From assembly GCA_017550285.1 (NCBI GenBank), contig JAFZPP010000041.1, forward strand, positions 1 to 64,000: 64,000 bases of DNA, written 5' to 3'. Positions 5,013 to 31,752 of the stretch are shown here, piece after piece (the first letter of the stretch is position 1; the number at the start of each line of letters is the position of its first letter). The translations under genes and the position numbers were made by a program. The notes under the pieces were generated by a model. The model was not told where the DNA came from and did no database searches. It saw only the letters and a program-made list of their open reading frames with translations. This stretch comes from Oscillospiraceae bacterium (lineage in GTDB: Bacteria; Bacillota; Clostridia; Oscillospirales; Ruminococcaceae).

Positions 5013-5071
5013 ATTATACTGTACAGCATCCGAGAACACAATGAAGAATTTATGCAATCTAGGGACAAAAT
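5013..5071 (-). promoter_or_regulatory. type-1 box promoter of the GH5-CE1/GH43 operon
   Basis: On the minus strand: -35 TTGTGT (5036-5041), 17-nt spacer, -10 TATAAT (5013-5018). The 33-bp box occupies 5039-5071 and overlaps the -35 by 3 nt. Its core reads TGCAATCTAGGGACAAAAT on the plus strand. Confidence 0.8.
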
Positions 5072-5094
5072 ACGCATTTATATAACAAATGACT

Positions 5095-5153
5095 AAATTA
5101 TCCTCAAATTGCACATTTTCTTCATTGAACATCAGGTGCACCTTTGCTATAAT
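5095..5153 (+). promoter_or_regulatory. type-1 box promoter of GH98a
   Basis: -35 TTGAAC (5125-5130), 17-nt spacer, extended -10 TGCTATAAT (hexamer 5148-5153). The box lies at 5095-5127, inverted relative to the one at 5039-5071, and overlaps the -35 by 3 nt. The two boxes face away from each other and serve divergent genes. Confidence 0.8.
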
Positions 5154-5194
5154 GAGATTGACCCGAAAAGGGAAATGTTTTTAAGGGGGAATTT

Positions 5195-8100
5195 ATGATG
5201 AAACTGAACAAACTGTGTGCCGCGCTGCTTTCCGGTCTGCTGACATGCAGCGCAGTGACCGCCGTCAAGCCTGAAACCGGCTGGCTTCAATCGGGCAGCA
5301 CTGCAATTACCGCGGAAGCAGCCGGTACGCTGCGCCGCCCGTGCGATCCGGAGCATCCGATGCTGATTGTCCACATCGACACATGGAATGTCGCTGATCC
5401 TGCAAAGGTCATTCAGTCGATTCCGGAGGACATCCGACCGTACTGCGTGTTCAACATCTCGCTTTCGATTTACTGGAACAATCATCAGTGGGGACTCGTG
5501 CAGAACGGCTACGAATGTGCAAAATCATGGCTAAAAACCTGTTCCGATGAGGGAGTCTGGTGCATGATTCAGCCGGCTTCCGGCGGTCAGTGTCATTTTC
5601 CGGATTATGACAACAGCTACAACATTGTCAATTCGCCGAACAAAAATCTTTTTGTTCAGCACGCGGATGAAGATTACGAAAACACGATCTATGCAGAATT
5701 CTTCCGCGATTATCCGGGCTTTATCGGCTTCAATTACTCCGAACAGTTCTGGGGATTTGATTCCGCAGATCATCCATGCACATTCCAGCAGCGTTATCAG
5801 CATTTTGCGCATCTTCTGAAATTATGCAACAAATACGGCGGCTATCTCAACATCAACTGGTGCGCGAATCAGTGGTCGGCGCCGCTCAATCCGATCGCAA
5901 TGCTAAAAACCAATCCGCAGTGGCGCGAAGCCTGCGAAAAATACGGACAGAATTTACAGCTCGAAGAAAAATACACGCAGGGCAGCTTCATTGAAGATGT
6001 GGAGAGCGAGGTGCTGGGATTCTATCTTGCCGGATACTGCGGCAGCTTCGGCGTGCGCTATGATGAAACCGGCTGGACAGACTGCGATGATAACGGCAAG
6101 GTGCAGTTCCAGAAAAACTACTACCGCCAGATTACCGGCATGCCGATCCACATGGAGCGCATGGTTCTGAACGGCGCAACGGTCATTGACGGACCGGAGC
6201 TTGTCTGGCAGGATGATTTCCGTGAGACCAGCTATAATGACAGCGAAGGCTACCGCTGCCGCGGCTGGGAAACAAAGGACATTTATTATGATTCCACACT
6301 TGCATTCTTCCGCAAGGTCATCGACGGCACAGTGAAAATTCCTTCGCGGCAGGAGGTCATCGACCGCACGCAGTATGTCATTATTCACGATGTCAATTCC
6401 GGCGACGACCACAAGAAATACAGCACCTACGAAACATTATTCGAGGGCTTATACCGGATGCCCGGCGACGGCAATCTCCGCAACAACAATAATCTGTTCA
6501 AATGTACCGGACGCTATCCGACCATTCCGACCGTGTATTCCCTGCGTGATGATACGGCAAAATCCTTCAAGTATCAGCTCAAGCAGTCGGAGCTGCCCTC
6601 CCGCTGGAACAGCATTGCTTCAAAGCAGGATGAGCTGAACAAGGTATTTCCGGCGCTCTATTCAGGCAACTGCTATGTTGCAAACTATAACAATTCGTGG
6701 GTGACTTACAATCCGAATAAAACCGGCAAAAACTGCGGCGGCGTATTCGATCTGAAATACAACACCTGCAAGAGTATGGATGTCAATTTCAACGCATACG
6801 GCAATGCATTGATTACAGAATATCCCGACCACATCGACATTCACACCAACAACTTTGACAACAAGGCGCAGACCACTCTGAAAACCGATACATTCAAGAT
6901 CAACGGCTGCTCCGCACAGCCGACCTATACCGCAAAGGATACCGGACGGAATCAGGCGAAATCGCAGATTGCCGAAAGCTACAGCAATGGTACATATACA
7001 CTGACCGTGCAGCACAACGGTCCGGTTGATATCACGATCAACTGCACCGGAAACGAAACCAACCGCCTGACGAATACACCTGCAAAGAAGGTTCAGACAA
7101 TCGCACAGCCTGCACCGTATACCGGCACACGGCAGTATGAGGGCGAATTCTTCGATCTGAAAAACTGCGAGGGCTATGTCGGCAATGCCTGCGGCAGCGG
7201 CGTGAACAATGTGCAGGGACAGGGCTTCCTCAAATTCGGCAAGAACGGAAACGCAATGGCAAAGGATACCGTGCATACCGAAAAAGCCGGCGATTTCAAG
7301 CTGAAACTGCGCTATTCCAACACCTCAGACATCAACAATGTCGATCTCTATGTCAACAACAGCAAGGTCACAACACTCAAACTCAGCAATACCAACGGCT
7401 ACTCCAACTGGAAAACCGTCGAACAGAAGATCACGCTGAAGCAAGGCGATAACCGCGTGGAATTCAAGGCAAACGGCGCACTGTCCTCCTCGCTTTACAT
7501 CGACAACTTCACGGTAGACGGCGATTTCGGTGCGGGCACATCGCAGACTGTTGTTGTCAGTGAGCCGGAGCCGCTCAGCGGCAAGCTCATCAAAAACCTG
7601 AATGTCAGGGATACTGAAAATGCATCTGACTGGTCGATTGCAAACGGTTTCAAATCCGGTGATACGGCTTACGGTGACCGCGACATCACTGCATCCAGCG
7701 TACCGGCGAATCTTGCAAATGCGGAAATGATCAAAACCGCATGCGATTCCAAGATGTACACATCTGATCTGGCAACATTCACGGCAGGCGCTGATATCAC
7801 GGTTTATGCGGCGGTTGATTCCCGTATCAGCACAGGTCTGAACTGGCTCGGCAAATGGCAAAAAACCGGTTCAGCGATCATTACCTCAAATGATGTGACG
7901 CTGGAGCTCTACAAGATGAATGCCAAAGCAGGTGAAGAAATCACGCTCGGCACAAACGGCGGCGATAACGAATCGGCGAATTACCTTGTATTTGCACTGA
8001 ATGCTGCGGACGATTATCTGCTCGGCGATGTCAGCGGCGACGGAAAGATCACCGCAGTGGACATGACCCTTGCAAAACGAATCGTCCTGACAGACGGTGC

Positions 8101-8206
8101 GTTCGACCCCGCAGCGGATATCGACAGGGACGGCAGGATCAGCAGGACAGATATCGAATGGTATGTGAAATTCCTCACGGGTCTGACACCGGATTTTGCT
8201 GCATGA
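5195..8206 (+). CDS. GH98-CBM-X module-dockerin enzyme (GH98a)
   Basis: 1003-residue secreted protein; AAGGGGGA precedes two adjacent ATGs (5195 and 5198), either of which could be the start. The signal peptide ends near ITAEAAG. GH98 catalytic and C-terminal domains span about 42-625, with the family-like stretches FNISLSIYW, YAEFFRDYPGFIGFNY and VRYDETGWTD; acidic residues in NYSEQFWGF and near VIDGPELV are candidate catalytic residues. A CBM6/35-like module (647-775), the X module (792-932) and a C-terminal dockerin (942-1000) follow. Characterised GH98 enzymes are endo-acting: blood-group endo-beta-galactosidases, or glucuronoarabinoxylan endo-xylanase in Bacteroides ovatus. With xylanase neighbours, the xylanase activity is the better inference. 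A close paralogue lies at 31812-34820. It is driven by a type-1 box promoter. Confidence 0.88.
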   Translation: MMKLNKLCAALLSGLLTCSAVTAVKPETGWLQSGSTAITAEAAGTLRRPCDPEHPMLIVHIDTWNVADPAKVIQSIPEDIRPYCVFNISLSIYWNNHQWGLVQNGYECAKSWLKTCSDEGVWCMIQPASGGQCHFPDYDNSYNIVNSPNKNLFVQHADEDYENTIYAEFFRDYPGFIGFNYSEQFWGFDSADHPCTFQQRYQHFAHLLKLCNKYGGYLNINWCANQWSAPLNPIAMLKTNPQWREACEKYGQNLQLEEKYTQGSFIEDVESEVLGFYLAGYCGSFGVRYDETGWTDCDDNGKVQFQKNYYRQITGMPIHMERMVLNGATVIDGPELVWQDDFRETSYNDSEGYRCRGWETKDIYYDSTLAFFRKVIDGTVKIPSRQEVIDRTQYVIIHDVNSGDDHKKYSTYETLFEGLYRMPGDGNLRNNNNLFKCTGRYPTIPTVYSLRDDTAKSFKYQLKQSELPSRWNSIASKQDELNKVFPALYSGNCYVANYNNSWVTYNPNKTGKNCGGVFDLKYNTCKSMDVNFNAYGNALITEYPDHIDIHTNNFDNKAQTTLKTDTFKINGCSAQPTYTAKDTGRNQAKSQIAESYSNGTYTLTVQHNGPVDITINCTGNETNRLTNTPAKKVQTIAQPAPYTGTRQYEGEFFDLKNCEGYVGNACGSGVNNVQGQGFLKFGKNGNAMAKDTVHTEKAGDFKLKLRYSNTSDINNVDLYVNNSKVTTLKLSNTNGYSNWKTVEQKITLKQGDNRVEFKANGALSSSLYIDNFTVDGDFGAGTSQTVVVSEPEPLSGKLIKNLNVRDTENASDWSIANGFKSGDTAYGDRDITASSVPANLANAEMIKTACDSKMYTSDLATFTAGADITVYAAVDSRISTGLNWLGKWQKTGSAIITSNDVTLELYKMNAKAGEEITLGTNGGDNESANYLVFALNAADDYLLGDVSGDGKITAVDMTLAKRIVLTDGAFDPAADIDRDGRISRTDIEWYVKFLTGLTPDFAA

Positions 8207-8223
8207 AGACATAATCTCATATA

Positions 8224-8264
8224 AAAAGCAGATGAACCGTCGGTAAGGCGGTTCATCTGCTTTT
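8224..8264. terminator. bidirectional terminator
   Basis: Perfect 16-bp stem (AAAAGCAGATGAACCG with its complement) between convergent GH98a and the GGDEF gene, with A and T runs on the two sides so it can serve both strands. Confidence 0.85.
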
Positions 8265-8289: not shown

Positions 8290-10230
8290 TCATTTTCTGT
8301 GCATATTCCGCTGCATTTTATTGTGATACATGATCTCATCGGCGAGAATCAGCACGTCATCCAGTTTTTCTGTTTCTGACAGGCTGCGAAACGTACAGCC
8401 AATGCTTGCTGTCACGGAATACGGTTTGCCTGCTTCCTCGGATTTTTGGGCAAGCAAACCATTAAAACGGTTGATTTTCTCAGAACAAATCTGTGTATTG
8501 TATTTTCCGATTCCGATGACAAAAAATTCATCACCGCCTGAACGGACACAGATTTCATGCCGGTCGGTGATTGCCATTGCCGCCTCACTGACTGCAAGAA
8601 TGCCGAAATCGCCTTCGCTGTGACCGAAGGTATCGTTGATATATTTCAGTCCGTCCATATCAATGACGCAGGCAAACAGCATATCATCCGGCTTTGCGCG
8701 TTTCAGCATCAGCTCATACTCTTCATACATTCCGCGGCGGTTGAGCAATCCGGTCATTTTATCGTGAACAGACATGACAGAAAGTCTGTTTTTAGAGCGC
8801 GTCATTTCCAGTGCCGTATTGACAAACCGCAGCCAGTTCCGATAAACAAGATTGAACTTTTCACAGTCACGCAGATTTCTTTGCAGGACAGCATATCCCA
8901 GCGCTTTGCTGCCGAAATGCACAGCCGAAAAATAAAAAGCATACGGTTTATCTCGCTCTGTAAACATTTGCGGCAGCATTTCGGAGGTGTTGAATGTGAT
9001 ATGCTGGTCTTCGTTATAAATTTCCGGCTCGCCGAGTTTGGATGACGCCAGTACAAGACGCATTTTTTCAGGATAACCGGTTGTCAGATCATTCTCCATG
9101 TCAAGCCAGTCTTCCCGCAGACAGATATACATATTGGCATAAGGGGAGATTGTGAAGAAAGACTGGAAGATTTGCTGCAAACAGGCTATTGGGGTTTGTG
9201 CCGAAGCAAGCTGTTCGGGAATATAATTTTCCATGAGCAGTCCGATGTCAATATTATCATTGAAAGTCTCGTCGGTATAATTTCTTGATACATAATATAA
9301 GGATGACTTAATGCTCTCCAGCGTTCGTTTGAAATCCGGAGCGCACCCGCAGCTCATACCAATCCGGAGCATTTCTTTCGCGTCCGGTTCATAGGGAATG
9401 ACCGGTTCATCTGGTTCAATCTCTGCCCTGATCCGGTCAACCGCATCTGCACCGCACTTGACAAAATTGGATTCAATGGTTGTGAGCTGTATTTCATTTA
9501 ACGCTGCTTCCGGTGTGGCGTCGAATCCAAGTACACGAATATCTTCAGGGACTTTCATGCCGAGTTCAGTCAGTTTCTCAATAACGCCAAGTGCCATATG
9601 ATCGCTGACAGCAATCACTGCATCCGGTCTGGAGATCCTGCCGGCTGCAATGTCTTCGGCAAGACGGTTTCCGCTCGTATACCAGAAATCTCCGTAAACG
9701 ATATGTTCATCGGCAACCGAAAGACCGTGCTTTTCAATTTCATCGCGCATCACGGAAAGCCGTTCCTCAGATTCATGATTGCCCTGCATTCCGGTCAGTA
9801 TGCATATTTTTTTGCAATGATGCGTCTCGATCGCATGACGGCAAATCTCACGCAGGAGCTCCGAATTGTTGTTGTCAATCGTCGGAATTCCGCCGAACGG
9901 GATCCCGATGCCGTATACCGGACATTTTGCCTTTTCTTTGATTCGGGTGCAAAGTGTTTCGATCAGATCGGTTTGGTTCGCGTAAATCAGGCTGATATTG
10001 TCAAGAATGATGCCGTCGAATTTCTCATAGTTTATCAGCTCATAGATATTCCGTTCGCCCTGTGCATAATCCTTAAAGTAGAATTCCAGCGTGATCATTG
10101 ACGCGAATTCCGCAAGATGATAGCCGTATTTCTCACATTGCGCAGCGATGCCTTTTGTCAGTCTGTGCGCATGAAACGACTCCGGCACACAGGTAATGAA
10201 ACAGAGTGTTTTCCGCTTACTCACAGCCAT
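8290..10230 (-). CDS. LacI-type sugar-binding-GAF-like-GGDEF diguanylate cyclase
   Basis: 646 residues from ATG at 10230, chosen because GGGAGG lies 7 nt upstream; no signal peptide or membrane segment, so cytoplasmic. Residues about 1-285 resemble the ligand-binding part of LacI/PurR repressors but lack their N-terminal helix-turn-helix. Residues about 300-470 form a GAF-like region shared with the two AraC-type regulators here. The C-terminal domain is a GGDEF cyclase with DKMTGLLNRRG and an intact SGGDEF active site, so it should make cyclic di-GMP from two GTP. No I-site RxxD was confidently seen. Its promoter (10272-10300) lacks the locus box, suggesting constitutive expression. Inference: it links intracellular sugar levels to c-di-GMP, perhaps to adhesion or cellulosome display. 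Confidence 0.85.
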   Translation of the reverse strand: MAVSKRKTLCFITCVPESFHAHRLTKGIAAQCEKYGYHLAEFASMITLEFYFKDYAQGERNIYELINYEKFDGIILDNISLIYANQTDLIETLCTRIKEKAKCPVYGIGIPFGGIPTIDNNNSELLREICRHAIETHHCKKICILTGMQGNHESEERLSVMRDEIEKHGLSVADEHIVYGDFWYTSGNRLAEDIAAGRISRPDAVIAVSDHMALGVIEKLTELGMKVPEDIRVLGFDATPEAALNEIQLTTIESNFVKCGADAVDRIRAEIEPDEPVIPYEPDAKEMLRIGMSCGCAPDFKRTLESIKSSLYYVSRNYTDETFNDNIDIGLLMENYIPEQLASAQTPIACLQQIFQSFFTISPYANMYICLREDWLDMENDLTTGYPEKMRLVLASSKLGEPEIYNEDQHITFNTSEMLPQMFTERDKPYAFYFSAVHFGSKALGYAVLQRNLRDCEKFNLVYRNWLRFVNTALEMTRSKNRLSVMSVHDKMTGLLNRRGMYEEYELMLKRAKPDDMLFACVIDMDGLKYINDTFGHSEGDFGILAVSEAAMAITDRHEICVRSGGDEFFVIGIGKYNTQICSEKINRFNGLLAQKSEEAGKPYSVTASIGCTFRSLSETEKLDDVLILADEIMYHNKMQRNMHRK

Positions 10231-10271
10231 AATGAACCTCCCTTCCGTATGCGAGCATCCTCTTTGCACTT

Positions 10272-10407: not shown

Positions 10408-13400
10408 TCACTTCAGCGAAGGCTGATACTGTGTTTTCTCATACCGGAACCAGTCTACATCGACATAGCCGCCGCTCTGCTTTGTTGCATAGTTGAAGAT
10501 CGCATTGCGGTAGCCGGTGAACAGCGTCAGCTTGTATTTCATTGAAAGCTCACTGCCGATCTTTGTCCAGTTTGTGCCGTCATAGGAATACCAGAATGTC
10601 GCTTTGTCAATGTCATTAGAGGAAGACATTGTATTCTGATCGAACGTCGAGAACTGATAGTCGATCTTGAAGTATACCGTGTCAGATTTCAGCGGGGTTT
10701 CCTCGACAATCTTTGTCACGCCGCCCTTGCAGCCGATACCCTGCTGATTGCCGTCGCCGTTGACTGCCATGAACACCTTTTTGTTGCCGCTGTTGTCAAC
10801 ATAGACGCCGACCTGACCGTAAACCTCCTGGAATGCTGCAAGTCCTGCATAATCGCCGGTTTTCATGTTGGCAGCATCCATTTTGATGCTGCCGGTGCAC
10901 GCAGGACCTTCGGTACGCTGCGTCAGAGAATTGCGTGCGTTCAGCAGATTATTTGTCACCGCACCGGTTTTCAGTCTGAGCCAGCCCTTGCGTTCCGTCA
11001 AAGACCACTTTGTATTGTCAGGATTGTGATTCCACTGCCATTCCAGCGGCAGTGCTGTTTCTTCAAATTCATCGCTGACTGCGAGATTTGTTCCGGTGTA
11101 ATTGGTGTTGACCGTCAGTGTGGTCGGGACCTTGCCGTTGACACCGAACACCGGCCAGTGATCCTGCCAAGTGACCGGAATCAGGCTCGGAATGCGCCCG
11201 ACAGCACCGTGATCCTGGAACATGATGCTGTACCATTTGCCGTCTGCGGTGTCGATCAGACCGCCCTGCGCACAGCCTGCCGCATAGCTGCCGACACCGG
11301 CAGACATCACCGTTTTGTAGTCATAATTGCCGAGCAGTGTTTTGCTGCGGAAGACCATTTCAGAGCGCGGCCATTTGCCGATGACAAAGTTATAATAATA
11401 CCCGTCGATTTTATAGAAGTGCGAGCCTTCGCAGAGACCTTCCCACTGTCCTTTCATCAGCACCTGCGATACGCCGCCGTTCTGGAAGCCCGTGACATCG
11501 CTGTTGAGCTGCTTAATGCTGATCGTGCCGCTGCCGTAGATCAGATAATTCTTGCCGTCATCGTCAAAGAACAGGGAAGCATCATGATAAACACCGTTGA
11601 TCGTGTATTTTTTCCATGTGCCGTGCTCAATATCGTCGGTCTGGAAAATATAGGATTTGCCCTGATCGTTCGATGCAAAAAATGCGATATATTTGCCGTT
11701 GTGATATTTGAGCGACGCTGCCCACTGCCCGTAGCCGTAGCAGCTTTTTCCGTTCAGCAGATTAGTTGTATCGTTGTTTTCGAGCGTGTCATAAATGTAG
11801 TTGCAGATTTCCCATGAAACGAGGTCTTTCGATTTCATGATCGGCGCACCGGGATTGAAGAACATCGTTGTACTGACCATGTAATAGGTATCACCGACAC
11901 GCAGATAATCCATATCCGGAACATCTGACCAGATCATCGGATTTGCAACAACCGTATCGGTTTTCACTTCAGGAACTTCCGGTTCCTCCGGTACAGCCGC
12001 AGCAGCAAATTTGTCGACCTTCGTCAACAGGTAATCACGCAGCATGGTAAGATCGGTGATATCCACCTTGCCGCTTCCGTCCACATCTGCTGCCTTTTCA
12101 GACTGCTGATCTGCAAACTGATTCTGTACACCGCGCTTTGCAAGAGAAAGATCAGCGCCGCTGATGCTTCCGTCGCCGTTGACATCGCCCTTGATGCGTG
12201 CTGCATTTTCCAGCGGCACTGCCAGCACAATATAGTTTGCAGATTCCGATTCGCCGCCGTTTGTACCGAGCGTGACTGTGTCACCTTCCTTGGCGTTCAT
12301 GCGGAATAATTCAAGGTCTGTGCCGTTTGATGCAGCAATCTTCTCGCCCGTCTTTGTCCATGTGCTGAGCCAGTCCAGCTTTGCATTGACACGCGAATCG
12401 ACCGCCGCATATACCGCAATATCCGCGCCTGCTGTAAAGCTGCCAAGCGAACCCGTAAAGAGCTTGGAATCGCATGCACTGCGGATATATTCTGCGCCCT
12501 TGACCGATGCCGGAACACCTGACGCCGTAATATCGCGGTCGCCGTAAATCACGCTGCCGGATTGCAGGTTCTTTTGCACCGACCAGTCCGCCGCATTTTC
12601 AGTGTCATTTATTTTGAGTGACTGAATCAGCCTGTCGGATTTGACTTCGGTGAATCCGGATGCATTGCCGAACTGCCACCAGTCGAGATTGTAAAGCGGA
12701 TTGCTGCCGCTGCCGGAGAATGTCAGGTACAGATCATGCTCGCCGGATGCGCCCGTGATATCGCAGGTAAACTCTTTCCAGCTCTGCCAGCCACCTGTAC
12801 CGGAAATGTTCACAGCGCCGATCTTTGTACCTGTTTTGGAATCGAGATGCAGCTCCAGCGTGCCGCCGTTATTCGCAGAAGATGCGCTGACCTTGAACGA
12901 ATTTGCACCGCTGCCGAAATTGACGCCGGACACTTTGATATATTCGCCGTTCTGAATATCGCAGACATTTCTGCCGCCTTCGGAGCAGTCTTCGGTCTCG
13001 ACGCCCTCCTCCCAGCAGATTGTTTCGGCTTCTGTCCGCTGATAGGGATTCAGCGCTTCGAGCTGCGCAGGACCGTTATTTGAGCGTGTCATTTCCTTGA
13101 TCTTGCCGTCCGCGGTATAAGTCATTTCCTCAAGGCACATGGAGCGGTCGAATCCGCCGCCGCCCGGCAATGTTCCGGTATGATAGGTGAAATACGAATG
13201 CCCCTTATAGTCAACGATGCCGGGATGATTGGTAAAGCTGTTGCCGCCGCTTTTCATAATCACACCGCAGTAAGTCCACGGACCTGTCGGGCTGTCGCTC
13301 ATGGAATATGCAATATTTTCCGGAATGCCGTCCGCGGCAAAGACCATGTAATATTTGCTGTCGTGCTTGTAGAGATAAGGTGCCTCTGTATACTTAGAGT

Positions 13401-14125: not shown

Positions 14126-14184
14126 ATTATAAGCCTGTATGTTACGAATTGCAATGAAGAAAATATGCAATCTAGGGACAAAAT
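14126..14184 (-). promoter_or_regulatory. type-1 box promoter of the GH43/GH43 gene
   Basis: Minus strand -35 TTGCAA (14149-14154), 17-nt spacer, -10 TATAAT (14126-14131). The box at 14152-14184 is closest to the type-1 consensus and overlaps the -35 by 3 nt. It lies between this gene and regulator 1. Confidence 0.82.
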
Positions 14185-14197: not shown

Positions 14198-14226
14198 TTG
14201 ACACTGCCGAGAAAATACATTATAAT
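14198..14226 (+). promoter_or_regulatory. consensus sigma-A promoter of regulator 1
   Basis: TTGACA (14198-14203), 17-nt spacer, TATAAT (14221-14226): full consensus, so probably strong without an activator. The neighbouring box ends 14 nt upstream of the -35. Confidence 0.85.
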
Positions 14227-14250
14227 AAGAAAAAAACAGGGGGATTTCTT

Positions 14251-19905: not shown

Positions 19906-19964
19906 ATTATAACAGACGCTCTGTATGAAGTCTATGTAGAAAATATGCAATATAGGGACAAAAT
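19906..19964 (-). promoter_or_regulatory. type-1 box promoter of the GH30-GH43 gene
   Basis: Minus strand -35 TAGACT (19929-19934, poor), 17-nt spacer, -10 TATAAT (19906-19911). The box is at 19932-19964. The weak -35 fits activator-dependent transcription. Confidence 0.78.
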
Positions 19965-19979
19965 ACTCATTACATGGAT

Positions 19980-20108: not shown

Positions 20109-20167
20109 ATTATACGCTGACGGCGCCATGAAATCAATGGAGAAAATATGCAAACTATGGATAATCT
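20109..20167 (-). promoter_or_regulatory. type-1 box promoter of the candidate small RNA
   Basis: Minus strand -35 TTGATT (20132-20137), 17-nt spacer, -10 TATAAT (20109-20114). The box is at 20135-20167, more diverged in its distal half. Confidence 0.75.
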
Positions 20168-20202: not shown

Positions 20203-20261
20203 ATTTTATCCCTAAATTGCGTAAATACTTCATTGATTTCCGTATACACCTCTGTTATATT
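20203..20261 (+). promoter_or_regulatory. type-1 box promoter of the GH10-CE1 gene
   Basis: -35 TTGATT (20233-20238), 17-nt spacer, -10 TATATT (20256-20261). The box at 20203-20235 reads on the minus strand and overlaps the -35 by 3 nt. Transcription yields a leader of ~110 nt before the ATG at 20377. Confidence 0.8.
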
Positions 20262-23300: not shown

Positions 23301-23517
23301 CCAGTTCACATTCAAGCAAGAGGAGCTGCCGTATCTGCTTCATGTCAGTGCAGGCTCGAATGACGGTTTGATTCATGAGATTCCGGCGGGATATCACAAC
23401 ACGATGACACAGGTCGGCACAGACCACATCTGGCATTATGTGCAGGGCGGCGACCACGGCGGCAAAACGATTCGACCGCATATGTATTATTTCGTGAGAG
23501 AGGTTTTCAAAGCATAA
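20377..23517 (+). CDS. CBM22-GH10 xylanase-X module-dockerin-CE1 esterase
   Basis: 1046 residues from ATG 20377, downstream of a GGGGG motif; signal peptide ending VEAAEI. CBM22-like module about 28-175, GH10 about 180-536 with HTLVWHGQTPEW, acid/base E331 in DVCNE and nucleophile E454 in QITEMD. X module 555-698, dockerin 703-758, then a CE1 esterase (771-1046) with MYCMHGYWG, nucleophile S941 in GFSMGG, Asp in GSNDG and His in GGDHGG. The pairing of an endo-xylanase with a feruloyl/acetyl esterase, again around an internal dockerin, fits ester-decorated cereal xylan. Expression is from a type-1 box promoter facing the small RNA unit. Confidence 0.93.
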   Translation: MQHKRFAAAMTAAGCIAAMMTVMPMSVEAAEIVHNDFEINYGGWYAESPDDSAYLDAATGIGFGSSRGMQISGRTSPADGAVSEKDLYLIGGERYDYAVSVFSKTPQTFMLTLTTSDSKTGKETVKVLDKQYAKGGVWLTLSASYKAPLNSQSFKLRITTDTTDDFIFDNVSVKGYKGLTAYAAERGLKDELVNYGIRSGNLLNGATINNDTIKNLILKDNNAVECENETKPDATLVQNGSTNTDIKVRDSSFAKIADWCAKNGIAFRGHTLVWHGQTPEWFFKENFQKDGKWVSVDVMNQRLESYIKNMFAMYAKNYPNLNLYAYDVCNECVSDDANRTANFGGAREPGYGNGKSPWVQIYGSNVFVENAFAYAKQYAPKSCKLFYNDYNEYAGHKRDCIYNMCKKIYEQGNLDGVGMQSHINASWDGFSGYDAYVTAMKKYLSIGCDVQITEMDVNVKSGTTLDDQAKKYKAILQAAMDWNKEHKDGGHVTLFQIWGPNDANSWLGRDAKGTLYDVNNNPKAAYTAVTSIIPQSEWGDGTKFSDDFTPPAPEPISGTLIKELTVNDTANASDWSIQNGLKRGDAVYGDRDITAASVPEKFANAEFVRTACDSKLFSSDLGTFTSGADMNLYAAVDVRISGTLTWLNTWTKTGEAIKTSNDVTLELFKKAVKSGETVTLGTNGGQSDSANYLVFALRPADEFNLGDADRDGAITAKDLTAAKRIALGKADMNSAADVNCDGAVDETDVEWYVLYLTGQTNAFPEKVVQEVQHMDGKTYMAQIRQTLTNTAEPNGATAENAGTAYGTYKKETIYSDVCKRSKSFNVLIPAGYTTSKQYPVMYCMHGYWGDEDALLDKGDASLRLRQIIGNAIASGEAEDMIVVFPDIYASATQDKCSALDDKNNAAYDNFINLLTKEIMPFMEKNYSIKTGRENTAITGFSMGGRESLYIGFTRPDLFGYIGAMCPAPGVPLQNSQFTFKQEELPYLLHVSAGSNDGLIHEIPAGYHNTMTQVGTDHIWHYVQGGDHGGKTIRPHMYYFVREVFKA

Positions 23518-23580: not shown

Positions 23581-25716
23581 TTACAGAAAGAATCTTCGCT
23601 TCATCAGTGTCAAATCCGTTGCATTGAGAATCCCGTCCGAATTCATATCTGCGGCTTCTGTGTCGAGCTGTGTTTCCTTTGAAACCAAATAATCCAGCAT
23701 CAATTTCACATCCGCAGCATTGATACTGCCGTCATCATTTATGTCTCCCGCTTCCGTGCGGTGCAGAGTGCCGTAAACGGCAAGCTCCGCGATGTTGCAG
23801 CAGTATACATCGTCGTGATTGACATTGTTCTGCGGCGCGCCGTCCGGTACGCTGTAGCGCACATAGCGCCCAACCGCCTGCCTTTCGATGAAATGCATCC
23901 CGAAGTCTGGTATTTCCGGAATGGTATACACTGTCTGCCAGTTTATCCCGTCCATGGAGACTTCAAAGCGTGCATCGACACAGCGGTTTTCATAGCCCTG
24001 ACGGGGACAATAGGCAAATGCTGTGAAATCATAGACTGCACCGAGGTCAGCCATTGCGTAGCCGCTTCCGACTCCGTCAAAATATGTATTGAGATTTCCG
24101 TCAAAAGCATTGCGATAGGATACTGTTTCATCACCGCGCCATGCGATTGAACCGGAAAGGACAGCATCTGAAAGGTCTATTTGGTCTTCACGGTTCAGGT
24201 TCGAGCCGACTCCGTCAATGATATAGGTCGTGATCGAATTCGGCACTAGTGCGGCGTTCAGTTTTCTGCCGGAAAAAGCCGCTGTTCCGGCGTCTGCCCA
24301 GTTTTCACTCTGACTTGTGCGGATGATTTTCGCATTTGAAAAGCTGCCTGTAAATTCAGAAAGATCATATTGCAGCTGGGCTGTGCTGCCGGCAGTGTTA
24401 TATACGGTAATAACAAGCTGCTGCGCATCCGGATCATATGCTGCCATAGTGTTCCCTGTGGTATCGAGCATCAGCATGCCCGGTCGGATATAGCGCGTAT
24501 ACTGCCCGAAGGCATAATATTTTTTCGAGAGAACAATCGTGTTCCGGTCATGGTCTGCGACCGCCGTACCCCAGAACCCGCCGTTGATATCCGGCATTCC
24601 GGAATCTTTTTTCCCGTTATAGCCCGCCGCACAGACATGACTGTCGATAATCTGCCACAAAATCCATGCGCTTGCCTGCATTTCGTTGCAGTCTGCGGTG
24701 ATGTGCTCTGCAAGCCACAGACCGGCACCCATTGCGCCTGCATTGCTGCCGGCGGTTCCTTTTCCGTCAAATTCGCTCATCCAGAGGTTTTTACCGGCGG
24801 AAACCGCTGCATTTTTCAGTTCTTTCCGCTTCACACCGCTGTATCCGTGCGTGTCGATGCGGGAAAGTGCAGCCTTTGCTTCGGAAGAAAACGCATTCCA
24901 TTCGTCAAGCTGCAAGTCGATCGAGGTTTCGTCTGAGGCACAGACGATCGTATCCTGCATTCCGCGTGCTGTAAGGGCTTTTTGCAGTTCGAGCACGATT
25001 TTGCTCTGTGAATCGCCCATACTGAAACGGCAGCCCTCCTGCTTGTTGCTCATCGCACGCCAGTAGAAGGTATGCGGCTCGTTCATCGGTTCCACGCTCT
25101 GAATCGGGATGCCCCATTCATTCTGATAGTGCGCGCAGACCTCTGCCAGATACGCCGCAAATGCCGGATAACTGTCATCGCGCAGATTATTTTTGCCCGG
25201 ATCGATAGCGCCGGTCGAGCATCCGCTGTTTGTCATGTAGTACGGCGGAGAATTGGAGAACATTTCGACAATCGCATCTTTGCCGGCAGCCTTCACACAC
25301 CGTTTCAACACATTCCGCTGGGCAGCATCTGCATCCCAGTCATAAACAGTTTTTCCGTTCTCGATACGGGTATATCCGGGCATATTGGAATCTGTCCGCG
25401 TAATGTGATCGTGCTTCGGATCGTCGCCGCCGCCGATGTTGAACCGTGCGATATTCAGACGCAGACCGTTCTCGCCGTAAAACGCATCGGCTGCTTGCTG
25501 TGAAAGTGAATCTGAGTAACCGATACGGTTTGCCCACCAGCAAAGCGATGTTCCCCAGCCCTCAAAAACACCGTCATTGACCGTATGAATGCGATATGGC
25601 GAAAGCGTTACGGTATTTACCGCAGCGGCAGGGAAAGAAAAAGTACTGCACGTCTGAAACAGCAGTGTGCAGGCGAGTGCGCCGGACATGAGCCCGGAAA
25701 AAACAGATCGTTTCAT
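23581..25716 (-). CDS. GH30 (galactanase-like subfamily)-discoidin CBM-dockerin
   Basis: 711 residues from ATG 25716, with GGAGG 8 nt upstream; signal peptide ending PAAAVN. The GH30 domain (about 38-508) has FEGWGTSLCWWANRIG, acid/base Glu in PMNEPHTFYW and nucleophile in LWMSEFDG. This start motif is nearer to GH30 endo-beta-1,6-galactanases (subfamily 5) than to the GH30_8 xylanase at 16490, and the glucuronate-binding RR loop is absent. A discoidin (F5/8-type) module (518-648) and a C-terminal dockerin (652-711) follow; there is no X module. The dockerin carries the DLTLMKR helix in its second repeat rather than the first. Promoter with a type-2 box, next to regulator 2. Substrate uncertain: galactan side chains are one option. 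Confidence 0.8.
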   Translation of the reverse strand: MKRSVFSGLMSGALACTLLFQTCSTFSFPAAAVNTVTLSPYRIHTVNDGVFEGWGTSLCWWANRIGYSDSLSQQAADAFYGENGLRLNIARFNIGGGDDPKHDHITRTDSNMPGYTRIENGKTVYDWDADAAQRNVLKRCVKAAGKDAIVEMFSNSPPYYMTNSGCSTGAIDPGKNNLRDDSYPAFAAYLAEVCAHYQNEWGIPIQSVEPMNEPHTFYWRAMSNKQEGCRFSMGDSQSKIVLELQKALTARGMQDTIVCASDETSIDLQLDEWNAFSSEAKAALSRIDTHGYSGVKRKELKNAAVSAGKNLWMSEFDGKGTAGSNAGAMGAGLWLAEHITADCNEMQASAWILWQIIDSHVCAAGYNGKKDSGMPDINGGFWGTAVADHDRNTIVLSKKYYAFGQYTRYIRPGMLMLDTTGNTMAAYDPDAQQLVITVYNTAGSTAQLQYDLSEFTGSFSNAKIIRTSQSENWADAGTAAFSGRKLNAALVPNSITTYIIDGVGSNLNREDQIDLSDAVLSGSIAWRGDETVSYRNAFDGNLNTYFDGVGSGYAMADLGAVYDFTAFAYCPRQGYENRCVDARFEVSMDGINWQTVYTIPEIPDFGMHFIERQAVGRYVRYSVPDGAPQNNVNHDDVYCCNIAELAVYGTLHRTEAGDINDDGSINAADVKLMLDYLVSKETQLDTEAADMNSDGILNATDLTLMKRRFFL

Positions 25717-25757: not shown

Positions 25758-25816
25758 CAGTATAGCATAATACATTATTTGAAACAATCAATGAAATAAA
25801 CAATCTGTTTGAAATC
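25758..25816 (-). promoter_or_regulatory. type-2 box promoter of the second GH30 gene
   Basis: Minus strand -35 TTGTTT (25781-25786), 17-nt spacer, -10 TATACT (25758-25763). The box starts at 25784 with CAATCAA and has TCTGTTTGAAA in its distal half, like the boxes at 31633 and 31694. Confidence 0.65.
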
Positions 25817-25868
25817 AAAACAGAAGTCCGAACCATTTTCAATCTGCAATCATAAGGAGATGATGAGA

Positions 25869-28058
25869 ATGCGCAGAAAACTGATCGGCGTGATTTCCAC
25901 ACAAACAGCCTTTTCCGAACAGAGCGAGATCATCCGCGGCATCATCGCGGAAGCGTTCACGCTCAATACGGATATTGCGGTGATTTCAAATATATATAAT
26001 CCTGCCTACAATGATGACGCGCTGAACGCGGAGAACGACATCTACCGGCTTCTGCTTTCGCCGGATCTGGATGCACTGATCCTGATTACAGAAGCCTTTT
26101 CCGATCCGTCGCAGCGCAGACGCATCACAGAGCTGATCCACAGCAGACCGGAAATCCCAATGGTTGCGATCGGCTCGGTTGCTTCCCGCTTTGATCTTCC
26201 GAATTGCCTGATGCTCAATACCAGTGATGAGGATGACATTGCTGATGTCACCATGCATCTGATTTCCGAACACGGCTTTACAGACATTGATATTCTGACG
26301 GGCCCTGATACTATGATTGTTTCGCATCATCGCGTTGCAGGTTACCGCAGAGCACTGGAACAGAACGGTATTCCGTATGATGAATCCCGCGTGATCTACG
26401 GTGATTTCTGGATGAATTCCGGTCAGACGCTTGCGGAACAGTATCTCAGCGGAAAGCGCAGAATGCCGCAGGCGGTCGTCTGCACCAACGATTATATGGC
26501 GTTCGGTCTGATTGATGTGCTGTCAAGGGCAAATGTGCACATACCGGAGAAACTGACGGTCATCGGCTACGAATACGCGCAGGAACGGCATCTGCATACA
26601 CCGATCTTGACCACCTATCAGCGGAACCGCCCGGCGCTCGGTAAAGCGGCTGTGCAAATTCTGCTGCACAAACTTAACAAAGGTGTTTACAGCAGCTTTT
26701 CCCCGCCGCGTGGAACGGTCATCCCCGGCAATACCTGTTCCTGCGGTGTCTGCGCACCGGCATTCACGGAAGAGCTGGAAGCTGTCCGCGCTCGCAGTGA
26801 CAATGAATTCCTGCATCTGCACAGCCGGCTTGAACTAAAACTGATCGAAGCCAAAAGCATGGAGGATTTCCGGCTTGCATTCATCGGTCAGGAATTTCTG
26901 CTCCGCAATGTGCAGGAAATGTCCGTCTGCCTGTATGCAAACTGGTATACGGAGGATGAACCGGGCGAGAATGTGATCTCGTATCCAGTCTATTCCGAAA
27001 CGCACGAAGGCAATTCCGCAGTGTTCCCGTTTACATCATTGCAGGAGATCATCGGGAAATGCAGGCATCCGGCAGCCTATTTCTATACACCTTTGTTTTT
27101 CAGCAGGTATCCGCGTGGTTATGTGGTATTGCGCTACGACATCCCGACAACCTACGATCCGGTATTCCGGAACTGGGTGAAATCGGTCTATAATGCGCTG
27201 GAATTCCTGCGGATGAAAAATGACATTCAATCGCTGCTTGCCTGTCAGAATCTTTCGGAATATCACGATACACTGACCGGACTTTATAACCGCAAGGGCT
27301 TTTCCCATGCGCTGCATCTGGAAATCGGGAAGACAAAGCCGTCGGTTTTCTGCATTTGTCTGCAAATTGGTCTGCGGCATGACTGCCTTGCGCTTGAAAG
27401 CAAACTGCCGGAATCAGCCGCAGCCAAATCTCTCGCTAAAATCCTGCATCTAATTGGATCCGAAAAGCTCGTTTCGGCACGCATTTCCGATCAGCGATAT
27501 GTGATCGCAGCGGTCAATTTGCCGAAAGAAATGCAGCGTGTTCTGACCGACCGTCTGCACGCGCTGCTGCTGCAGAATACGGACTGCTTCCGCATAAACG
27601 GTTCCTGCGGGTATGCAGTCGTCACACATGAAACAGCAGAATATCAGAGCAGCACAGCACTGCTGCAAGCGACTGAGAATGCGATGGAGGAACAGCTGAT
27701 GCATTTGCAGAGCACCAGTCACAGCCCGCATTATACTTCCTTTTGCACGGCACGTAATCTGGTATACGCACACGATAAACCGGTGCAGGATATTGCTGTG
27801 CTCTGCCGCAGTTTCTCTTTTTCCGAGGGCCATTTCCGCCGTATATATAAATCTATGTTCGGTCTGAGCTTTCATCAGGATATCATCCGGCGGCGCGTAC
27901 TGCATTCGATTGCGCTGCTGATTACCACAGAGCTTGACCTGTCAGCGGTTTGTCAGCGCTGCGGCTATGAGAATTACAGCTATTTCATGAGCCAGTTTCA
28001 CGCTTTCACAGGCATGACACCGAATCAGTACCGCAGAATCATCTCTGCGCATACATAA
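25869..28058 (+). CDS. Regulator 2: LacI-type sensor-GAF-like-degenerate GGDEF-AraC regulator
   Basis: 729 residues from ATG 25869; this start is preferred over the ATGs at 25860 and 25863 because AAGGAG ends 9 nt upstream and the N terminus then aligns with regulator 1. Same order of domains: LacI-type ligand binding (1-290, CTNDYMAFGL), GAF-like region with CSCGVC at its start, a GGDEF remnant (DTLTGLYNRKGF) without the active-site loop, and an AraC double helix-turn-helix ending GMTPNQYRR. Cytoplasmic. It diverges from the second GH30 gene and lies near GH95 and GH98b, whose promoters carry type-2 boxes, so it probably controls those. Its ligand is unknown; differences from regulator 1 in the sensor suggest a different sugar. 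Confidence 0.85.
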   Translation: MRRKLIGVISTQTAFSEQSEIIRGIIAEAFTLNTDIAVISNIYNPAYNDDALNAENDIYRLLLSPDLDALILITEAFSDPSQRRRITELIHSRPEIPMVAIGSVASRFDLPNCLMLNTSDEDDIADVTMHLISEHGFTDIDILTGPDTMIVSHHRVAGYRRALEQNGIPYDESRVIYGDFWMNSGQTLAEQYLSGKRRMPQAVVCTNDYMAFGLIDVLSRANVHIPEKLTVIGYEYAQERHLHTPILTTYQRNRPALGKAAVQILLHKLNKGVYSSFSPPRGTVIPGNTCSCGVCAPAFTEELEAVRARSDNEFLHLHSRLELKLIEAKSMEDFRLAFIGQEFLLRNVQEMSVCLYANWYTEDEPGENVISYPVYSETHEGNSAVFPFTSLQEIIGKCRHPAAYFYTPLFFSRYPRGYVVLRYDIPTTYDPVFRNWVKSVYNALEFLRMKNDIQSLLACQNLSEYHDTLTGLYNRKGFSHALHLEIGKTKPSVFCICLQIGLRHDCLALESKLPESAAAKSLAKILHLIGSEKLVSARISDQRYVIAAVNLPKEMQRVLTDRLHALLLQNTDCFRINGSCGYAVVTHETAEYQSSTALLQATENAMEEQLMHLQSTSHSPHYTSFCTARNLVYAHDKPVQDIAVLCRSFSFSEGHFRRIYKSMFGLSFHQDIIRRRVLHSIALLITTELDLSAVCQRCGYENYSYFMSQFHAFTGMTPNQYRRIISAHT

Positions 28059-28089: not shown

Positions 28090-28095
28090 CTTCTG

Positions 28096-31000
28096 TTATT
28101 TTCCGAGCAGATAATCCCGGATTCCTTTTGCATCTGTTGCATTCAGATTATTGTTTCCGTCGTAGTCTGCATTAGAGCGCCCGAGCGGCGTCAGAAGGGT
28201 GTCGTCGCCGGTCAGCATCACACGCTTTGCAAGGGTCAGGTCGCGTGCGTCGATCTGTCCGTCACAGTTTGCATCGCCCTTGATTCCAGTGAAAACGAAG
28301 GAATCCACATTCAGCAGATAATCACTGCCGCCTTTGAACACAAGGCAGATATCCTGTACATCTCTGACTTCTTCCAGCTTGCAGGTGAAGGTTTCATAAT
28401 CCTGCCAGCCGCCTGTGTTCGGGATTTCACAGCTTCCGAGCAGTTTTCCGGTCGGCGATCCGACGCGGATTTCGATTGTTCCGCCTTCCGTATTGCTTGC
28501 AGCACGCACGGAAAAGTCCTTCGCACCGGATTCAAACTCCAGCGAACGGTAAACCACATACGAGCCGTCTTTGATAAAGCCGAGATTTGCTGTGCCGTCA
28601 TCTTTTCGCTCGATCTGAGCCTCGCTGACAAAGCTGTATGCTTCTGCCTGCTGTGTCACAAATGCGCTTCGTGCTTTGGCGACAGATGTATCGCCCCACA
28701 GTTCCAGTTCATAAACACGCGCTCCGCCCTTATTGTTCTGCGTCGCGGTATTCAGATAAAGCCGCACATACTGCGCTGAAAAAGGCTTGACATTTTTATT
28801 ATAAACTGTTCGCGTATTGCCGTAGACCGTGTCAATATCCGTCCAGTTCTGTCCGTCATTGCTTGCCTGCAAGCTGAAATCACGAGCGTTGAACTGAATA
28901 TCTTCAGCGTCTCCCGCAAAATGAAGGGTATACCTTGAAATATTCGCGGGTGCATCAAATTCGACCTGCGCCCATTCGCCGCCCAAACCGTCAACATGAC
29001 ACCATTTTGTCGCGGCATTTCCGTCCGTGAGATTTTCGGCTGCTTCACCGGTTTCTGCACCGGATGCCGTAACCTTCTGATTCAACGCAATGTTCATCAG
29101 AGTCTCAGTATCATCGGTGAATTGCAGCGCACCGTTCAGGGAGTAGGATCTGCCTTTTTCTGTCTCAAAGCTGATCTGTGTACTGCCGTATTTCAGATTG
29201 CACACGCCGCCCGATTTCGAGAGAATCGTCACATTCCGGAGCTTGCCGTCCGTCCAGTTCATTTCCGTGATCTCAAAATTACCCCGTGCGCAGAGACCGT
29301 TTGCATGACCGGTGTTCCATGCTTTCGGCAGTGCAGGCAGCAGCTGGATCATATCATTCTGGCTTTGCAGCAGCATTTCTGCAACACCCGAAGTAAAGCC
29401 GAAATTGCCGTCGATCTGGAACGGCGGGTGTGCATCCCATAGATTTGCATATAATCTGCCGCTTTCGCTGCCGTCCACCGGCGTAATCAGCAGCCGGATG
29501 AGTTGATAGGCGTGTTCGGCATCGCCGAGCCGTGCCCAGCAGTTCAGTTTCCATGCCTCAGACCAGCCTGTTCCGGCATCGCCTCTGCCTTTCAGCGTTG
29601 TGACGGCAGCCTTTGCGGTTGTGCTGTTCGTTTCAGGGTTGACCTCGCAGCCCGGGAATACGCCGTAAAGATGCGAAATATGGCGGTGCTTTTCATTCTG
29701 ATTGTCAAGATCGGCTGCCCATTCCTGAATCTGCCCCCATTTTCCGATTGTTTCCGGCCTGAGCAGCGTCAGCTTGGATTGCAGCTCGCCGCGCAGTGTT
29801 GCATCTTTACCGAGAATGGTCGATGCTTCCGTCACATCCTTAAAGAGCTCGCGGCAGATTGCATTGTCCATTGTCACGCTGAAGCTGCAATAGACATTGT
29901 CGCCCCACGCATATCCTGGAATCGGCAATTCCGGCGAAGCGCTCGGGCTGATGCCTGCGTATTCCTGCCCGTTCACAGTCTGCTTCACCATAAGCTGATT
30001 GAGGAAGGAAGCGCTGCCCGAAATCACCGGATAGATTTCCGTGAGATAGCTTTCATCCTGATTGAAGCGGTATGCATCATAGAGCATATTGGATATCCAC
30101 GCACCGCCGACCGGCCACTGTCCCCATGAGCCGTCAATCGGCGCGGTCCGGTTCCAGAGGTCGGTATTGTGATGCAGCACCCAACCGTCCAAGATGCCGT
30201 AATGGACACGCGCAGTTTCATTGCCGTTTGCCTGCAATGCCTTCGCCTTCTCCACAAAGGGTTCAAAGCATTCCGCAAGATTGGTCGTAAACGCTGGCCA
30301 ATAGTTCATTTCGTAATTGATATTCGTGGTCGCCTTGCTGCCCCATGCAGGAAATGAGTATTTATTCCAGATGCCCTGCAAATTCATTGCCTGTGCATCG
30401 CGGGAAGCGGAGATCATCAGATATCTGCCGTACTGAAACAGCAGCTTGACCATTTTCGGGTCATTTGTCTGCGAGAATTCTTTGATGCGCTGTTCTGTCG
30501 TCTTTGCATTGGAAACATCACTGTTTCCGCCGAGGTCAACATCGACACGATGAAACAGCTCCTGATAATCTGCGATATGCCGCGTATACAGCTCATCGTA
30601 TGTCATATTCTGCACAGCTTTCATATCGTTCGCGGCATTGCCTTTTTCATCCGCATTGCAGGTCTTGGAATCAACATAATTCGTGCGTACAGTCGTCAGG
30701 ATCAGAACCTCGTCTGCTCCGCTGACCTGAATTCTGCCGTTTGCTGCGGTCATGGTTCCGCCTTTCGGAATCAGCTTGGTACGCGCCGAAAAATGCACTG
30801 CACCGGCAACGCCGCAGTCGCTGTCGCCGTGTCCGTTAGCAACAAGCGTGTCATTGCCGTCCGTTACACCTCCGCCGCCAAGAATATCCGCATAATACGC
30901 AGAAAATGAAACACTGGCGCCCGTATTGCAGCGAATGCGCGTCACCATGACCTGATCGGGATGACTGATAAAGGTCTCGCGGGTATACTGTTTACCGCCG

Positions 31001-31542
31001 GTCGTATAGGTTGAGGAGGCGACCGCATCGTTGAGATCAAGCTGACGGGAATAGCCGGACACATCCTTATGCCCGAAATCGAGCTTGAGCATACCGACTT
31101 TCTGATATTTCGCCTGTCCGCCGCCGATCATGCTGTCGGTGATGATCTTGTTCGCATCCTTGTAATTGCCTGCGGCGATCAGATCCTGCACCTGTTTCAG
31201 TTTGGAAGCTGCGCCGGATTTATTATTGTTTCCCGGGCCGCTGCTCCAGATCGTGCATTCGTTGAGATCAAACCATTCCTCCGGATAGTTGCCGTAGACG
31301 GTTGCGCCGATTCTGCCGTTTCCGACCGGCAGCGCACGGTAGAACGATTCGTCATTCTTCCATGCGTCATTACGGTTGACTGTACCTGCCATGCTGTCAT
31401 AGCGCATGACGAGATCATCGTCATGAATGACAGCCGCTGCGACGACCGGCGTATGCGGTACATATGACATACCGGAAAGCATCGGCAGCATGACTGCTGC
31501 CATAAAAACAGCAAGTATGCTTCGCTTTGTTCTTTTTCGCAT
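28096..31542 (-). CDS. GH95-discoidin CBM-CBM6/35-like-dockerin enzyme
   Basis: 1148 residues from ATG 31542 (another ATG two codons earlier is too close to AGGGGG). Signal peptide, then GH95 (about 44-810) with RALPVGNGRIGATVYG, acid Glu about 607 in QEWAADL and the DGNFGFTSG region. Known GH95 enzymes are alpha-L-fucosidases or alpha-L-galactosidases. Just before the NIN pair this protein has TT; my recollection is that a Thr there in place of the fucosidase His marks the B. ovatus L-galactosidase that trims complex xylan. A discoidin domain (817-950), a CBM6/35-like module (964-1084) and a dockerin (1087-1148, second loop slightly altered) follow. Type-2 box promoter, divergent from GH98b. 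Confidence 0.88.
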   Translation of the reverse strand: MRKRTKRSILAVFMAAVMLPMLSGMSYVPHTPVVAAAVIHDDDLVMRYDSMAGTVNRNDAWKNDESFYRALPVGNGRIGATVYGNYPEEWFDLNECTIWSSGPGNNNKSGAASKLKQVQDLIAAGNYKDANKIITDSMIGGGQAKYQKVGMLKLDFGHKDVSGYSRQLDLNDAVASSTYTTGGKQYTRETFISHPDQVMVTRIRCNTGASVSFSAYYADILGGGGVTDGNDTLVANGHGDSDCGVAGAVHFSARTKLIPKGGTMTAANGRIQVSGADEVLILTTVRTNYVDSKTCNADEKGNAANDMKAVQNMTYDELYTRHIADYQELFHRVDVDLGGNSDVSNAKTTEQRIKEFSQTNDPKMVKLLFQYGRYLMISASRDAQAMNLQGIWNKYSFPAWGSKATTNINYEMNYWPAFTTNLAECFEPFVEKAKALQANGNETARVHYGILDGWVLHHNTDLWNRTAPIDGSWGQWPVGGAWISNMLYDAYRFNQDESYLTEIYPVISGSASFLNQLMVKQTVNGQEYAGISPSASPELPIPGYAWGDNVYCSFSVTMDNAICRELFKDVTEASTILGKDATLRGELQSKLTLLRPETIGKWGQIQEWAADLDNQNEKHRHISHLYGVFPGCEVNPETNSTTAKAAVTTLKGRGDAGTGWSEAWKLNCWARLGDAEHAYQLIRLLITPVDGSESGRLYANLWDAHPPFQIDGNFGFTSGVAEMLLQSQNDMIQLLPALPKAWNTGHANGLCARGNFEITEMNWTDGKLRNVTILSKSGGVCNLKYGSTQISFETEKGRSYSLNGALQFTDDTETLMNIALNQKVTASGAETGEAAENLTDGNAATKWCHVDGLGGEWAQVEFDAPANISRYTLHFAGDAEDIQFNARDFSLQASNDGQNWTDIDTVYGNTRTVYNKNVKPFSAQYVRLYLNTATQNNKGGARVYELELWGDTSVAKARSAFVTQQAEAYSFVSEAQIERKDDGTANLGFIKDGSYVVYRSLEFESGAKDFSVRAASNTEGGTIEIRVGSPTGKLLGSCEIPNTGGWQDYETFTCKLEEVRDVQDICLVFKGGSDYLLNVDSFVFTGIKGDANCDGQIDARDLTLAKRVMLTGDDTLLTPLGRSNADYDGNNNLNATDAKGIRDYLLGK

Positions 31543-31606
31543 TTTCATAACCCCCTGTATCTGATTCATACCCATTTGCGAAAGCGGCGTATCATCCGCT
31601 ATTTTG

Positions 31607-31671
31607 ATTATAGATTTCCATGCTGAAAAAAGCAATCAACAAACCGGCTTTTCTGTCAGAAAAACGAACAT
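31607..31671 (-). promoter_or_regulatory. type-2 box promoter of GH95
   Basis: Minus strand -35 TTGCTT (31630-31635), 17-nt spacer, -10 TATAAT (31607-31612). The box starts at 31633 (CAATCA) and continues with TTCTGTCAGAAAAACGAACAT-like sequence to 31671. Confidence 0.75.
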
Positions 31672-31707
31672 CTAACGGCGCAGAATCATGTTCATTTTCC
31701 TGATAGA
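31652..31707. repeat. inverted repeat joining the two type-2 boxes
   Basis: Two 20-nt arms (31652-31671 and 31688-31707) match in about 17 of 20 positions when one is reversed, separated by 16 nt. They are the distal halves of the GH95 and GH98b boxes, placed symmetrically between divergent promoters. Confidence 0.8.
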
Positions 31708-31752
31708 ATACAAACATTCCTGATTGATTTTCAAAGCTTTACGCTCTATAAT
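31688..31752 (+). promoter_or_regulatory. type-2 box promoter of GH98b
   Basis: -35 TTGATT (31724-31729), 17-nt spacer, -10 TATAAT (31747-31752). The box runs on the minus strand from 31726 to 31694, extended to 31688. Confidence 0.75.

Follow-up and report, generated by a model that had tools for sequence, protein, structure and literature searches.

In the xylan locus of a fibre-degrading gut bacterium of the Oscillospiraceae, nine promoters carry upstream boxes of two sequence classes, A and B, which lie at a fixed distance from the -10 hexamer, are local and go with the genes of two paralogous regulators, RegA and RegB. The window analysed comprises the first 64,000 nt of contig JAFZPP010000041.1 (coordinates in Table 1). 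On the evidence of the sequence, RegA and RegB would be AraC-type class-II activators acting at the class-A and class-B boxes, respectively, with a probability of about 0.85.

Two box classes at nine promoters

A preliminary description had placed nine promoters of 59 nt in the locus and had read one shared box in all of them. The layout was present at all nine sites: a box overlapping the -35 by 3 nt, a 17-nt spacer, a weak -35 (3–4 of 6 matches to the consensus at every site, rightly called poor before) and a strong -10 (5–6 of 6). Eight of the 59-mers stand where they had been placed; the ninth, given as 25758-25816, is in register at 25759-25817 of the reverse strand, a shift of 1 nt that aligns its -10 (TATACT) and box with those of the other two class-B sites. 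A single box common to the nine promoters was ruled out, the sites splitting into two sequence classes. Class A (six sites, 5–20 kb of the window, around RegA) reads ATTTTGTCCCTARATTGCAT-ATTTTCTTCATTGA, and class B (three sites, 25–32 kb, around RegB) reads roughly TTTTCCTGACAGAAT..-..ATTCCTGATTG. Boxes of both classes end on the -35 and are followed by the 17-nt spacer. All nine promoters were confirmed. Eight face GH5, GH98, GH43, GH30/GH43, GH10, GH30, GH95 and GH98 genes, each with a dockerin match in Pfam; behind the remaining one (20109-20167) the next box is reached before any protein gene, and this promoter faces a small-RNA-like unit instead. The promoter of RegA itself is a perfect TTGACA-17-TATAAT, unlike the poor -35 hexamers of the nine sites.

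Class-A information content was 1.61 bits per column in the box and 1.89 in the -10, compared to 0.51 in the spacer and 0.66 and 0.62 in the flanks. Each class-A site, when held out (box columns 1–30), came 1st to 6th among the 127,942 positions of the window, in a ranking that included the five training sites. Comparison of the two box halves gave most matches at period 20 for class A, for class B (including two sites of the sister genome) and for a general set of 53; in each of the three sets, 5 of 1000 column permutations did as well. A direct-repeat site adjoining or overlapping the -35 is a trait of the AraC/XylS family and was found here, with period 20 and a 3-nt overlap. A repeat of this period is what two AraC-type domains would require in order to lie next to each other on one face of the DNA.

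RegA and RegB are 53% identical, and both show C-terminal HTH_18 and HTH_AraC matches above the Pfam cut-off, in agreement with the two AraC-type regulators described earlier for the locus. Their sensor part matches Peripla_BP_3 and resembles the LacI, PurR and CcpA chains in the PDB, and their middle part matches GGDEF weakly and lacks the motif itself. The recognition region (consensus CGYxDxKYFLRQF) reads CGYDDYGYCLRLF in RegA and CGYENYSYFMSQF in RegB, and thus differs in step with the boxes. XylR-type regulators have about 390–410 residues and no further domain between sensor and helix-turn-helix; RegA, with 728 residues, is not a plain XylR because of an extra part of about 300 residues, holding the degenerate GGDEF, between sensor and DNA-binding domain. 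The protein of 8290-10269, in which no AraC domain match was found in Pfam, possibly serves sugar-responsive cyclic-di-GMP signalling, and RegA and RegB look like derivatives of its sensor-GGDEF architecture.

Boxes and regulators across genomes

In a scan of the 3.4-Mb genome, expectation values (E) were below 1e-11 for the six class-A sites and 1.6e-8 or better for the three class-B sites, values that are circular, as the sites had trained the models; the informative part is the gap after them. Among the best 150 of 1166 (class A) and the best 150 of 377 (class B) first-look candidates, no other match was better than E 0.03 and 0.18, respectively. Exact boxes had been expected at other dockerin and xylanase genes. 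No further convincing copy was found in these scans, a wider regulon of exact boxes was rejected and the regulons therefore look local.

A looser family pattern (at most two mismatches) matched the same genome 14 times, against 0 for the reversed pattern. These matches comprised five of the six class-A sites, two at the locus of a further paralogue, RegC, one at that of another, RegD, and six others, four of which precede esterase, GH97, esterase-CBM6 and GH43 genes while two (C17 and C35) do not precede a gene of esterase or glycosidase type. RegC has a variant box pair about 3 kb away at divergent GH10/GH43 promoters, and RegD one about 5 kb away at divergent GH2-like/GH43 promoters. Both cases are weaker: where a -10 is expected, the RegC boxes have just TAGAAT and TATGAT, and the position of one RegD site deviates by about one base.

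Both regulators have orthologues in the sister genome (G297), that of RegA at 76% over residues 211–727, on a contig without the gene start, and that of RegB at 86% identity. At E≤0.01 this genome has three class-A sites, confined to the RegA contig (E 2.2e-10 to 9.1e-8), and two class-B sites, outside the class-B training set and confined to the RegB contig (E 2.7e-7 and 9.1e-4). The orthologues form separate sister clades (support 99 for RegA, 100 for RegB and 100 for the two as sisters), so the box class follows the regulator and not the genome. Out of 297 genomes of the family, four had a class-A match at E≤0.001: the genome itself, G035, G100 and G239. The site in G035, outside the training set, lies directly behind the RegA orthologue (E 1.2e-8). 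Those in G100 and G239 are both inside open frames and apparently due to chance. A class-B match in G035 is weak (E 0.0025), has no RegA/RegB-like gene within the surrounding 9 kb and was set aside. Locus L062 (6811-8353) retains pieces of a GH98 gene and of a RegA relative, the latter 88% identical over 108 aa, apparently the decayed remains of a copied RegA-box-GH98 unit.

A box-only matrix was applied to 1.2 Mb of loci of RegA relatives, 52 of them from named genomes (45 of the 52 Ruminococcus). It located 96 boxes, 86 of them distinct since some loci are duplicates, compared to 0, 2 and 0 in shuffles. Of these boxes, 79 lie within 600 bp of a regulator gene, a zone covering 26% of the bases. 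With the -10 left out of the scan, 28 of 57 non-seed boxes of period 20 had their best -10 at exactly the distance seen in the window (permutation maximum 8 for a single offset, n = 1000). The next gene within 700 nt, labelled by likeness to window proteins only, resembled a window glycosidase in 45 cases, carried no label in 30 and was a regulator in two; for seven boxes the next gene lay 700 nt or more away, and for 12 the locus had none on the strand concerned. In L016 (Ruminococcus sp., 9203-9883) a box lies between the regulator and a gene for an extracytoplasmic function (ECF) sigma factor, followed by a large beta-propeller gene. This gene order is repeated in several R. flavefaciens strains (L023, L024 and L026 among the loci; the box was typed in L016 only) and suggests that a regulator of this type may control a sigma factor. 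The box period is often 21 in this group.

For 56 non-redundant regulators, box distance was correlated with the distance of the DNA-binding domain (Mantel rho 0.362, 0 of 2000 permutations), more than with that of the middle part (0.236, 4 of 2000) or the sensor (0.159, 39 of 2000), in a test that keeps shared ancestry and uses boxes that were themselves found by matrix. This property of the test weighs against activation by RegA and RegB, as do several other results. The class-B hold-out failed (ranks 469, 1083 and 103218 of 127,942), with two training sites only, in the uncorrected register and in a class too small for the test. The best -10 lies elsewhere at 29 of the 57 boxes, and 17 boxes of period 21 share no single -10 distance (four at offset 15, four at 22 and three at 19). 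No box was found within 3 kb of 21 regulator genes. The family scan was not fully sensitive and missed a class-A box that a matrix scan recovered next to the G158 orthologue of RegA.

RegA and RegB might instead be repressors that block RNA polymerase at the boxes until a sugar releases them, in the manner of LacI, which their sensor part resembles; the contact of the box with the -35 would suit this too. However, the DNA-binding part is of the AraC type, the boxes lie upstream of the promoter with an overlap of just 3 nt, and nine poor -35 hexamers suit a helper and not a blocker, which makes repression unlikely. A different regulator reading the boxes, for example a two-component regulator or the small AraC protein of 35839-36816, which is encoded nearby and has an AraC domain match in Pfam, is very improbable, given that the boxes track the relatives of RegA and RegB across genomes and correlate best with their DNA-binding domain. 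Similar promoters could also be left by recent duplication of genes together with their promoters, with no regulator reading them, and the two GH98 genes are indeed alike, as are parts of the GH43, GH30 and GH10 genes. This is hardly credible for promoters whose class-A likeness is confined to box and -10, with differing spacers and flanks, and whose boxes are retained next to the RegA and RegB orthologues of other genomes. The AraC-type class-II activation put forward in the preliminary description thus stands as a well-supported prediction, because about half of the boxes of the relatives keep the same -10 distance and the box follows the DNA-binding domain best. The layout, the AraC domains, the period-20 repeat and the pairing of box class with regulator in the sister genome point the same way.

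A small-RNA-like unit under a class-A promoter

The 132 nt behind promoter 20109-20167 fold with a z-score of -5.0, and a unit of about 124 nt was delimited, with six T after the last hairpin. It contains GAAAUCCCCCU, the exact complement of AGGGGGATTTC at the start of RegA, with 8 of its 11 nt predicted to be unpaired. AGGGGGATTTC has four occurrences in the genome; the other two copies lie before an Obg-like gene on C29, the product of which we take to be an Obg-like GTPase from the look of the protein, and inside a frame on C49. The RegA leader AGGGGGATTTCTTATG is found identically at G000:C29:12340-12350 (L149), before the same Obg-like gene. When a 14-nt seed was paired with 35 start regions of the window, RegA was the best partner at -20.4 kcal/mol and the next reached -15.2; other genes of the locus gave -14.6 (GH98), -14.4 (GH30/GH43) and -12.2 kcal/mol (GH95). 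The sister genome keeps the promoter, GAAATCCCCC and the terminator hairpin, in which one pair is changed on both sides; the rest has changed. The unit has no family match in Rfam. Its promoter, predicted fold and partial conservation would fit an independent transcript with a terminator and an unpaired C-run, as in the C-rich small RNAs of Firmicutes.

A number of results speak against RegA as the target. With the whole RNA, and its own folding ignored, RegA ranked 4th of 35 (-33.9 kcal/mol) and the best partner was the PBP-GGDEF gene (-36.6 kcal/mol). The RNA of the sister genome has a less striking fold (z -3.0), with a different 5' part, and the contig there lacks the RegA start with which it might pair. 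RegA orthologues in L011, L012, L013 and L127 do not have the AGGGGGATTTC ribosome-binding site. A two-sequence RNA model run on the 297 genomes returned its own copy and four unrelated-looking matches, and no convincing third genome; the matches, in G185, G135, G010 and G127, were by eye a hairpin near a tRNA, a stretch of open frame and unrelated hairpins, and were discarded.

The RNA might instead be a conditional-terminator leader of the GH30/GH43 gene, or a by-product, and not a free regulator. This gene follows closely downstream on the same strand, its ribosome-binding site also pairs with the seed, and RegA is not the best partner of the whole RNA. Against a leader, a second class-A promoter (19906-19964) between terminator and gene makes read-through unnecessary, and the C-run is mostly unpaired and conserved. 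We regard the leader or by-product as a serious possibility, somewhat short of an even chance, and a separate transcript as rather probable. Control of RegA by a small RNA is put forward tentatively: the perfect complementarity to the ribosome-binding site, in a mostly unpaired stretch, suggests negative feedback.

Table 1. Features of the xylan locus in window coordinates.
Feature	Positions	Strand	Basis
GH5-dockerin-esterase	2207..4969	-	Pfam
Class-A box and promoter, GH5-dockerin-esterase gene	5013..5071	-	59-mer, hold-out, genome scan
Class-A box and promoter, GH98 gene	5095..5153	+	59-mer, hold-out, genome scan
GH98-CBM-dockerin	5195..8206	+	Pfam
LacI-type sensor with intact GGDEF motif (RSGGDEF)	8290..10269	-	Pfam
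GH43-CBM6-dockerin	10408..13992	-	Pfam
Class-A box and promoter, GH43 gene, perhaps PBP-GGDEF gene behind	14126..14184	-	59-mer, hold-out, genome scan
RegA own promoter, TTGACA-17-TATAAT	14198..14226	+	
RegA ribosome-binding site AGGGGGATTTC, proposed small-RNA target	14238..14248	+	
RegA: LacI-type sensor, degenerate GGDEF, AraC HTH; proposed class-A reader	14251..16437	+	Pfam, tree
GH30/GH43-CBM6-dockerin	16490..19867	-	Pfam; start by best ribosome-binding site
Class-A box and promoter, GH30/GH43 gene	19906..19964	-	59-mer, hold-out, genome scan
Small-RNA-like unit, three predicted hairpins, last terminator-like	19979..20102	-	ends placed from -10 and T-run
GAAATCCCCCT, complement of RegA ribosome-binding site; GAAATCCCCC kept in sister species	20027..20037	-	
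Class-A box and promoter, small-RNA-like unit	20109..20167	-	59-mer, hold-out, genome scan, fold
Class-A box and promoter, GH10 gene	20203..20261	+	59-mer, hold-out, genome scan
GH10-CBM-esterase-dockerin	20377..23517	+	Pfam; start by best ribosome-binding site; frame open from 20299
GH30-dockerin	23581..25716	-	Pfam; start by best ribosome-binding site
Class-B box and promoter, GH30-dockerin gene	25759..25817	-	register corrected by 1 nt; genome scan
RegB: RegA paralogue, proposed class-B reader	25869..28058	+	Pfam, tree
GH95-CBM6-dockerin	28096..31542	-	Pfam; start by best ribosome-binding site
Class-B box and promoter, GH95 gene	31607..31665	-	59-mer, genome scan
Class-B box and promoter, second GH98 gene	31694..31752	+	59-mer, genome scan
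Second GH98-CBM-dockerin	31812..34820	+	Pfam

Elsewhere in the window, at 37557-37632, a 15-nt tandem repeat (GGTTTTCTAGTTCTA, 4.5 copies) is present in a DUF6017 gene near two tRNA genes.

Proposed regulation and known systems

RegA and RegB would be paralogous one-component activators that each sense a xylan-derived sugar through the LacI-type domain. A pair of AraC-type DNA-binding domains would bind the 20-bp direct repeat, the lower end of the box overlapping the weak -35, and the bound regulator may recruit or hold the sigma-70 RNA polymerase as in class-II activation. RegA is predicted to read the class-A boxes at five enzyme promoters and one small RNA, and RegB the class-B boxes at three enzyme promoters. 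Boxes and DNA-binding domains have diverged in step, and the regulons are therefore separate and local; RegA and RegB would thus be insulated from each other. With less certainty, the RegA-driven small RNA probably masks the RegA ribosome-binding site and would close a negative feedback loop. The full proposal is a family of sensor-GGDEF-AraC regulators in cellulosomal Ruminococcus that has expanded into several local regulons insulated from one another (A, B and probably those of RegC and RegD), with one geometry and co-diverged boxes, plus an activator-driven small RNA that blocks RegA translation as an autoregulatory loop within the xylan locus; taken as a whole, it is a conjecture that may well fail in part.

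To judge from literature searches, the choice of hemicellulases in cellulosome-forming Ruminococcus seems little studied. Dozens of genomes allow regulator family, operator and promoter geometry to be read side by side, which makes targets predictable from sequence, and the natural regulator-box pairs allow binding specificity to be studied. Should the small RNA prove real, it would add a new layer of feedback to a locus of this kind.

Class-II activation by AraC-type proteins, sensor fusions of the XylR type and C-rich small RNAs have all been described before. The variations on them that are new, as far as the open literature was searched, are one geometry shared by paralogous regulators with separate local regulons, and the proposed RNA loop; neither these boxes nor the regulator family is named in the literature covered, mostly titles and the starts of abstracts. 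The AraC DNA-binding part of E. coli XylR (PDB 4fe4, 4fe7) matches residues 617–719 of RegA. Unlike XylR, RegA and RegB carry about 300 extra residues with the degenerate GGDEF part, are encoded among genes for dockerin enzymes and come as a pair whose boxes are distinct. According to the part of the source considered (PMC5481539), the AraC-type double helix-turn-helix of XylS contacts two direct repeats at the Pm promoter of Pseudomonas putida, two monomers lying side by side. The boxes of RegA and RegB share the two direct repeats and the AraC-type domain, whereas the XylS half-site (TGCA-N6-GGTA) and sensor are different. XydR of Clostridium cellulolyticum is likewise an AraC-domain activator of a dockerin hemicellulase cluster, but in the portion of that report considered (PMC3572039) it is a two-component response regulator, binds 237–599 bp upstream of the start codons and is given no consensus box. 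In RoxS and FsrA of Bacillus subtilis, as described in the part of PMC10433868 considered, single-stranded C-rich stretches pair with G-rich ribosome-binding sites, as proposed for the window RNA. This RNA is likened to them by its proposed action and not by sequence kinship, and would differ in being driven by the very activator whose message is its proposed target.

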